A DNA stretch of 64,000 nt from Cliona cf. orientalis (taxonomy: Eukaryota > Porifera > Demospongiae > Clionaida > Clionaidae): contig OZ005701.1 in the NCBI GenBank assembly GCA_963930775.1, forward strand, positions 3,231,669 through 3,295,668, read 5' to 3'. Below the pieces are notes generated by a model, which was not told the DNA's origin, ran no database searches, and worked only from the letters and a program-made list of their open reading frames with translations. The position numbers were made by a program, and so were the translations under genes. Of the stretch, positions 34,352 through 63,860 are shown piece by piece. Numbering within the stretch: position 1 is the first letter of the stretch; each line of letters opens with the position of its first letter.

Positions 34352-37300
34352 ATGGCGTCACTGAAGAGGTTTGAGAAGAGGGTCGATGGTATGAGAATTG
34401 GCCTGTTGAGTCCAGAGGAGATAGTGAGTGTGTATACATAATTTTATCATTCAATAGTCAAATGCTATGGATTCTAGCTACTAGCTTGTCACAGCCATTG
34501 TGTATGTATGGTTGTAGTCCAAGAGTCATGCACTTACAATCGTGAATGTATCAGTGGGTGGTTGAACTTGATCCAACATGCAGGTAGACCTGTAGGAAGA
34601 ACCCAAACCCAAAGGGAGTTCTAGCATCGTCTAGAATACATTGTATAATCTTTATGATTCTAGGAGTTCTGTATGTAGAACTTTAATAGCTATGCCTAAA
34701 ACTAAAGCCATGTGTGTATAATGTATTCGCTAAGTTTTCCTCGAGTCCTCCACTCATCATGCATATTACATTTATATATTCCTAAATAGAGAGCCCAATC
34801 AGTGACACCAGAAGGAATACGCTATCCCTACACAATGGAGGCAGGCCGTCCCAAGATTGGTGGTCTGATGGATCCCCGTCAAGGTCCCACTGACAAGGCT
34901 TCCAAGTGTCAGACATGTTCTGGTAATACGGCCGACTGCGCTGGACACTGGGGGCACATTGATCTGGCCAAGCCAGTCTTCAATGTCATTTATCTAACCA
35001 AGACAATCAAAGTCCTTCGCTGTGTGTGCTTTTATTGCTCCAAGATTCTGGTTGATCCAGTAAGTGGCTATAATATCAGTCACGATAGTCACTCTCACAT
35101 CCATTAATCCTATTCAAATGGTAGGACGATAAAAAAATTCAGTACATTAAGTCCAAGTATGAAGGTCATGATAGATTCCAACGGATTTATGAAATTGCCA
35201 AGCCCATACTCATCTGTGATGGAGGAGACAAGATAGGTGCTTTAAGCCAGGAGGGACAAGAGGATGTTTTGAAAGAGGTATGAAATAGATTCGGATTGTT
35301 CTGAAAGCTGGCATAAGACATGCATGTACTAAACTTCTATGTGTAGCTGGAGGCTTGATCAATATCCTTAGAGATGTGTATGAATTATTGATCAAGTTTT
35401 GTACAGTGACAGCAATCAGCATGTAGCTAGCTATGTTTGCCCCTTGAAATCTTTGGGGTCTGTGATAGTTATGACTTCATCTGCCAAGATGGCTGTCATC
35501 ATATTATCGAGTGTGACCAACTAACAATACTGGTGATATTGCAATGAAAGGCAACAAAATAGGATTGGAGATGCAATCAATTATGGTATTGATTGATAAT
35601 TGAGAATTAATTCTATTGTACTCCTTGTCCAGGTCAGTGCGTATTAGTGTTCATTAGGTTATGGAGCATCCTTTGTGATCGATCTGGACTATACTGGTTG
35701 TTTTCCACCCTGTGGGTATTAAGTCAATATTAGTATGATCAAAATTATGCTGAACACTGATATCTGTGTTAAACTTTTGCAGACGCCTGGTGGGTGTGGT
35801 CGATATCAGCCAATGTTTCGTCGTGACTGTTTATCGATCACTGCCGAGTGGAAAGAAAAGAAGAGAAATGATGACACCCAGGACAAGAAGATAGTTGTCA
35901 CAGCAGAACGTGCTCTTGAGATATGTAAGAACATCTCAGACGAGAGCTGTGAGCTATTGGGAATGGATCCTGTCTTTGCCCGCCCTGAGTGGATGATCAC
36001 TACAGTATTCTCCGTTCCTCCTTTGTCAGTAAGGCCAGCAGTCATAACCAAGGGAAGTGCCAGGCAGCAGGTACATCTACAGCTGTGCTTTCGTAATAAT
36101 TATTGTATGTTATAGTGTGTGGGTGCACGGAAGTGAGTAGCTATTACACAAATGTATACAAAGCAATATAACTAAAAGCTACTGTAATACAGTGGCGTAA
36201 GAAGATGTTTTTGAACAGGGGGGCTGTAAATAAAATTGCGCGCAAAGCGCGCAAAACTTTTTTGGATCACACGATACGCCTTCAAACCATGCCCATTATT
36301 ATGCTAATTTGGCTGTAAAGTAGACTTTACATCACAAATCTGAAGATGTCAAGGCCTAGTAGAATAAATATCTTCCTAGGTTTAGGCCCACTTGATTGAC
36401 AAGATGGGGGGGGCTACAGCCTCCCCCCCCAGCCCCCCTGCTTCTTACGCCAGTGTAATATTATTATCGGCAATACATGTTACCAAAACATGATATGCAT
36501 ACGTATCCAAGATCACAATAATAAATGCTAGCTATTTTATAATTATAGTCTATCATAACATTGTGTATGCAGGATGATTTGACGTGCAAACTGGGTGACA
36601 TCATCAAGGCCAACCAGCAGCTTACTAGGAATGAGAAGAATGGCGCTGCCCCTCATGTCGTACTGGAGGACCTCAAGATGCTGCAGTTCCATGTGGCCAC
36701 TTATGTTGACAACCTCCTGCCTGGCATACCCAGGGTGAGCGTAAAAATCAGACAAAAATGTATGTGCATTACTTTGACAAGGAATGAATGACCATCCACT
36801 CCTATCTTACCCACATCTCTGCGATGTAGCAGTGTACTCTCATTAGGATGTAGTTGTAGTTTTTACTATCACAAATTATTAGTGTGGTTGTGGCCTCAAT
36901 AGTAAAGCACTGGAGCGGAACGATTTCGTGGCTTTTATGATTTGAGAACAATATTATCTACTGTACATTAGTTGTGCTATCAGTAATCGATTGTTGAGAC
37001 ATCGCTAGATGTTCAAGCAAGTCTGTTTGTTCATGCTTATTAATTTTCCTCTGCAGGCTGTGCAAAGAAATGGTCGACCACTCAAGTCCATCAAACAGAG
37101 GTTAGAGTCCAAGGAGGGCCATATCCGTGGGAACCTGATGGGGAAGCGGGTGGACTACTCCGCCAGGACAGTCATAACTCCTGACCCCAATCTCAATATT
37201 GACCAGGTCGGCATTCCTCGTACCATTGCACAAAACCTCACTTTCCCAGAGACTGTAACTCCATTCAACATTGACAAGTTGAGTTTATATCATTATGCCA

Positions 37301-63219: not shown

Positions 63220-63860
63220 GTATCATCTCAAGTTAGCTAGTTCCTGCAGTGCTAACAATTGCAGTGAATCTTACTCTATGGTGCTCTATTTTACTCTAGT
63301 AAGGTTCATTGCATATTATACTCTTAATATACCACCGATCACACTGTCTATATTGGTAGATTTTGTACATGTTTCTCTCGGTCTAGTCTTGGGTACCATA
63401 GGTCGGATTTTGATGGAAAGATAGCATGCAATGATAATGAACTGCAGACGAGTATTTCTAGAGAGCACATGCAATTGATTCTTAAAGCATCAATATCATA
63501 CTGTATGCATGGCATGGGATTGACTATTGCACTTCTATACATGCAATCACAATTATTAATCTTGGTCTGACTATCAAATTCATGCTGCATACTTTGCACA
63601 GCTTAAACTTTCAGTAACTTCTCACCCTCATGCAGTAAGAACCAAAGGCCGACTTTTGGGAGTCATTCTTATCAAAAACGGCTCCCAAAAGTAAGCCGTT
63701 GGTTCTTGGTGCATGAGGGAGAAAATATTTTTTCCATAATAAATACCTATAATAATACTATGATGAGGATATCAAATGCATGCATTGTTAGCAACTGCAT
63801 GCTTCGAGGGCAAGCAAATGAATTAGAGCTTTATTCCCTGGATACATACTTGCATGGTTT
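63220..63860. repeat. Repeat block B, related to 52985-53310
   Basis: It shares TAGTTCCTGCAGTGCTAA, CAGCTTAAACTTTCA, GCCGTTGGTTCTTG and TTATTCCCTGGATACAT with block A, in the same order. Within it, 63619-63723 is a hairpin with ~44-base arms (TTCTCACCCTCATGC ... GCATGAGGGAGAA and CTTTTGGGAG ... CTCCCAAAAG) that is reduced to one arm in block A. Confidence 0.75.

Follow-up and report, generated by a model that had tools for sequence, protein, structure and literature searches.

Two adjacent collinear copies of a POLR2A–kinase–secreted-protein block, one of them mostly decayed, in Cliona cf. orientalis

A stretch of 64 000 bp from the sponge Cliona cf. orientalis (the window) carries a gene for the largest subunit of RNA polymerase II (POLR2A, RPB1) and a kinase gene, and further along the same strand come fragments that resemble both. 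Do the downstream pieces record one tandem duplication, and if so, how far did the duplicated unit extend and what has become of its second copy? The window lies on contig C13 of an assembly of 216.8 Mb in 149 contigs, which was the genome searched. We compared the window with itself, then with 30 kb added downstream and 20 kb added upstream, and ran a low-stringency comparison of 34.0–55.1 kb against 55.0–94.0 kb. Positions are those of the window, and are continued past its edge where needed.

A collinear chain between adjacent copies

Comparison of 38.2–55.1 kb (copy 1) with 55.1–65.3 kb (copy 2) at E ≤ 1e-3 gave eight matches, seven of them on the plus strand. A single increasing chain takes in all seven, in the same order and on the same strand (Table 1). 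The strongest of them, match 7, falls mostly past the window edge. The POLR2A and kinase pieces and the two blocks called A and B thus keep their order and orientation, as the initial annotation had noted, and the chain supports its view of one tandem duplication with the second copy cut down. It had also expected the pieces to fall on a common diagonal of a self-comparison; this was borne out as to order, but not as to a constant offset, since offsets range from 17321 to 10100. Two matches on the minus strand are not part of the chain.

Table 1. Features of the locus and plus-strand matches between copy 1 and copy 2 (window coordinates unless a contig is named)
Feature	Position	Strand	Remarks
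Window POLR2A (RPB1)	34352–45847	+	19 exon blocks, Rpb1 domains; the duplicated unit takes in only exon 9 onward
Copy 1	38284–54934	+	Collinear matches to 55133–65058; left edge in POLR2A exon 9
Copy 1 kinase exons	48540–50045	+	Pkinase in ORF 48540–49094, E 1e-27
Block A	52979–53292	+	Upstream flank of secreted-protein gene, copy 1; matches block B
Secreted-protein gene, copy 1	54293–54679	+	128 aa from ATG; hydrophobic start
POLR2A exon 9 tail, intron 9 end, exon 10 start	55133–55313	+	Matches 38284–38322 and 38417–38476
Unmatched stretch	55314–55825		~0.5 kb inside exon 10 remnant, no plus-strand match in copy 1
Further POLR2A exon 10 piece	55826–55874	+	Matches 38508–38551, 87% over 46 columns
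TRIM-NHL gene 1	56727–58769	+	Open, 680 aa; RING, B-box, filamin, NHL
TRIM-NHL gene 2	59475–61434	+	Broken, two open pieces
Third NHL fragment	61829–61990	+	80% match to 61304–61466
Decayed copy 2 kinase exon	62147–62347	+	72% over 202 columns to 48635–48819
Block B	63218–63847	+	Upstream flank of secreted-protein gene, copy 2; matches 52979–53292 in two pieces
Start of kept copy 2 segment	63974–64000	+	Continues to ~65058
Secreted-protein gene, copy 2	64403–64789	+	Just past window edge; open frame
Second full-length POLR2A	C18:~976541–986899	−	On 7.76-Mb contig; more canonical
Match 1	38284–38322 to 55133–55171	+	Offset 16849
Match 2	38417–38476 to 55245–55313	+	Offset 16828
Match 3	38508–38551 to 55829–55874	+	Offset 17321; 87% over 46 columns
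Match 4	48635–48819 to 62147–62347	+	Offset 13512; 72% over 202 columns
Match 5	52979–53100 to 63218–63323	+	Offset 10239
Match 6	53140–53292 to 63694–63847	+	Offset 10554
Match 7	53874–54934 to 63974–65058	+	Offset 10100; 72% over 1125 alignment columns, E 7e-172

The two minus-strand matches (38760/55579 and 49256/65699) were among nine obtained when copy 2 was extended to 66 kb at E ≤ 1e-2. The former is probably a dispersed repeat, because it lies in an intron stretch with similar sequence at four other places in the genome. An inverted POLR2A piece (minus strand, 38679–38845 to 55805–55489) was rejected, since these four places resemble part of that intron stretch and the 42-column piece is weak (E 0.048).

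Several controls were run. Copy 1 was shuffled 200 times, with bases shuffled in pairs inside 200-base blocks; any match at all appeared in six of these shuffles, and no chain was longer than 1. In seven neighbouring pieces of 10.17 kb, taken from both sides, the chains had lengths of 2, 0, 0, 0, 2, 0 and 0. Reversed copy 2 gave one match at E ≤ 1e-2 (E 0.004), and at that threshold there was no match between window positions 1–34000 and copy 2, or between copy 1 and 66–94 kb.

The initial annotation proposed a unit of ~19 kb beginning at the start of POLR2A (34.35 kb). The leftmost match lies at 38.28 kb, and neither low-stringency DNA comparison nor translated comparison of 34.35–38.28 kb with copy 2 gave a convincing match. 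Our best reading of the sequence is a shorter unit, of ~16.4–16.85 kb, that would run from a left break within exon 9 of POLR2A (38.28 kb) to a right break after a small secreted-protein gene. A later deletion may have taken more of the POLR2A 5′ region out of copy 2. The right edge of copy 1 is uncertain between ~54.70 and 55.13 kb: similarity is clear up to ~54.70 kb, and past 54680 it is 63% in ungapped columns. If the break is at the leftmost match, the left-edge offset of 16849 equals the unit length. The same offset is the distance expected for a copy 2 that starts at the end of copy 1; the copies are adjacent, copy 2 beginning ~0.2–0.43 kb beyond the point where copy 1 clearly ends. The matched pieces of copy 2 total only ~1.7 kb. 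Their ungapped identity ranges from 76 to 93%, some pieces being short, so that one age for all of them is possible but not assured.

Other repeats occur in and near the window. A long palindrome at 56260–56509, with 71-base arms that are 99% complementary and outer arms of 32 bases, resembles a fold-back element, and block B contains a hairpin (63619–63725, 52-base arms, 81% complementary). An inverted match between 36181–36463, in the POLR2A intron region, and 89157–89456 downstream (300 columns, 85%) is probably a dispersed repeat. Another, between 24857–25085 and 51589–51818 (230 bases, 93%, short inverted ends), is possibly a small mobile element.

Decay and retention in copy 2

The POLR2A remnant retains the end of intron 9, which rules out an origin as a retrocopy. 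A translated search of 55–66 kb for other POLR2A exons (E ≤ 1) gave no convincing hit to any exon but 9 and 10. The genome has a second full-length POLR2A gene, on contig C18, with which the remnant could be compared. Over 39 columns the remnant is 87% identical to the window gene and 82% to the C18 gene, in a further short stretch the values are 87% (46 columns) and 79% (42 columns), and the intron part matched the window gene only.

The kinase remnant, in its translated match to copy 1, has stops and a gap. It scores 102 bits against the window kinase, versus 45, 31 and 24 bits against three other members, which are a small sample of a large family (at least 151 matches) spread across the genome. 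Of the window kinase, which the initial annotation put at 46.4–51.5 kb, two open reading frames were examined: 48540–49094, with the Pkinase domain, and 49386–50045, without a Pfam match. Scattered similar fragments elsewhere in the genome would, according to the initial annotation, speak against a tandem duplication. In the genome DNA search the kinase fragment matched only itself and the window kinase, which favours the duplication; the searches with the POLR2A fragment or block B found only themselves and missed their known partners in copy 1, as a search with the copy 1 exon 9–10 region missed its known partner in the window, so they barely inform on absence elsewhere.

Blocks A and B had been described as repeat blocks; they are instead the upstream flanks of a duplicated secreted-protein gene. 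Its frame is open in both copies, so that the picture of a copy 2 in ruins, while correct for POLR2A and the kinase, does not extend to this gene. A search of the genome with it found two copies only, both at this locus. The pair is 71% identical without gaps. Nei–Gojobori (NG86) estimates are dN 0.173 and dS 0.258, and YN00 gives dN 0.185 and dS 0.212. The coding parts are equal in length; alignment of the upstream flank has 22 gaps over 317 ungapped columns, and the same aligner placed three gaps in the coding part, cancelling out. Because the coding lengths are equal while the upstream flank is gapped, we read the pair as one in which selection may keep the frame while amino acids change fast. 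Values of dN are close to dS, and four cysteines that follow the hydrophobic start are common to both proteins. Neither copy has a Pfam match at E ≤ 0.01, no PDB match is significant (best E 1.2), and a structure model built on the two-sequence alignment is of low quality (mean pLDDT 53.3).

The TRIM-NHL genes sit between the remnants of POLR2A and of the kinase. For genes 1 and 2, NG86 puts dS at ~0.80 in the N part and 0.95 in the C part, and YN00 at 0.54 and 1.23. Gene 1 compared with nine relatives on contig C6 gives NG86 dS of 0.75–1.07; the two genes are about as distant from each other as from these relatives, and a tree leaves them without resolved placement. The nearest relatives of the pair form a cluster on the minus strand at C6:10006579–10060132. 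The dS of the TRIM-NHL pair is above that of the secreted-protein pair (0.26, 0.21), which suggests an origin before the block duplication. Duplication of the pair after that of the block is disfavoured by dS, and the proposed expansion of TRIM-NHL genes within copy 2 is unlikely (~0.8 and 0.95 by NG86, against 0.26).

Origin of the block

We consider it highly probable that the locus arose by a single head-to-tail duplication of ~16.4–16.85 kb, from POLR2A exon 9 to just past the secreted-protein gene. Such an event, which unequal exchange or a replication error might have caused, would have given POLR2A, kinase and secreted-protein gene, followed by a promoterless 3′ part of POLR2A, a second kinase and a second secreted-protein gene. 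The POLR2A part of copy 2 would then decay for want of a promoter; the kinase would decay also, and the secreted-protein gene would be kept. We infer the single event itself, the selection for a second secreted-protein gene and the order of the losses.

A variant of the same event would have the TRIM-NHL pair ancestral between POLR2A and kinase, with copy 1 losing the TRIM-NHL genes and copy 2 losing POLR2A and kinase. It is in keeping with the TRIM-NHL dS values, which by both methods exceed those of the secreted-protein pair and would place both TRIM-NHL genes before the duplication. However, tblastn at E ≤ 1 found no TRIM-NHL remnant in 34–55.1 kb, and with the nearest relatives clustered on C6, a move of the pair into copy 2 as a block fits as well. 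We regard such reciprocal loss as unlikely, while giving it appreciable weight.

The other explanations do without the duplication. That the POLR2A, kinase and secreted-gene pieces came by separate insertions, and in the same order, seems very improbable: the kinase family is large and genome-wide and dispersed repeats are present here, but all seven matches agree in order and strand, the remnants are closest to the copy 1 neighbours among the sequences compared, and the secreted-protein gene is found only at this locus. An assembly artefact, with the second haplotype set in tandem, we hardly credit at all, since the copies differ by ~7–24% in ungapped columns of the matched stretches and copy 2 is deeply rearranged, which we judge too far for alleles.

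Two RPB1 genes and comparison with known systems

A search with window positions 38100–39200 matched three exons of the C18 gene, and a genome search with Rpb1 domain 2 gave 13 matches on four contigs (C13, C18, C10 and C15), of which those on C10 and C15 are presumably the Pol I and Pol III genes. The window and C18 genes align over 19 exon blocks and 1474 codons with no stop in either, and the proteins are 75.8% identical. NG86 gives dN 0.158 and dS 2.13, and LWL85 gives dN 0.154 and dS 1.27, with synonymous sites near saturation in both estimates. The comparison shows purifying selection on the pair, as far as a pairwise value can, and is no proof for the window gene alone. A splice scan of both genes over 18 junctions found a GT-AG pair in common and a plausible joint peptide at 12, although at one of these two choices were nearly equal; the remainder had a wrong-looking candidate (14 to 15) or none (five junctions). 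In the window gene, two introns (7 and 9) appear to have GC donors.

The 10-residue motif that has the catalytic role in RPB1 is present in the window gene. Heptads of the form YxPxxPx number 47 in its C-terminal domain (CTD) and 52 in that of the C18 gene, position 4 being Ser in 38 of the former and 35 of the latter. The commonest heptad is YSPSSPS (19/47 in the window gene, at 44063–45847, and 23/52 in the C18 gene), and YSPTSPS is rare (1 and 3). With its open frame, catalytic motif and CTD heptads the window gene has the sequence features of an RPB1.

The best PDB chain for the first 912 amino acids is 7ega_o, which we take to be mammalian; the window gene scores 1485.7 bits against it and the C18 gene 1668.3 bits. 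Across 909 three-way columns, residues are unique to the window gene in 99, to the C18 gene in 26 and to the PDB chain in 99, and 79 columns differ in all three. From the 99 versus 26 unique residues and a Tajima chi-square of 42.6 with the PDB chain as third sequence, the window gene is, as judged by its sequence, the faster-evolving of the two. A POLR2A duplication within this lineage would fit, because both genes have many residues in common against the PDB chain. We suggest tentatively, at somewhat less than an even chance, that the genome may encode two working Pol II largest subunits, the canonical C18 RPB1 and the faster one in the window, each carrying a full CTD and each maintained by selection, in which case there may be a specialised variant of Pol II.

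An RPB2-like gene (C1:4362500–4371500) has a partial downstream tandem copy as well, positions 1–1874 and 4348–6225 of that interval being 93% identical over 1907 alignment columns. A polymerase subunit gene has thus undergone 3′ partial duplication here a second time, and more recently than POLR2A.

To our knowledge RPB1 is generally taken as single-copy in animals, and in the portions of the literature searched, no sponge or other animal was described as having two RPB1 genes. Plants and Oxytricha are reported to have more than one RPB1 gene per genome (PMC8306923, PMC5312943). The present case likewise has more than one, here in an animal-type genome. A diverged second RPB1 with its own CTD, if working, would make it possible to study the role of a specialised Pol II in a simple animal.

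A second RPB1 in an animal is the point of interest at this locus, and the duplication itself is ordinary copy, decay and retention; it dates its own parts, and the orphan secreted-protein gene is the part kept. TRIM-NHL gene 1 has all the domains of its known family and no difference from it was seen; within copy 2 the pair is a bystander. A segment duplicated in tandem, with one copy then mostly lost, is a case of birth-and-death evolution. The locus conforms to it: the copies stand head to tail, one is partial, and in that one genes have decayed and a single gene has been kept. Particular to this case are a partial RPB1 at the junction and a TRIM-NHL pair within copy 2, and nothing essential differs.
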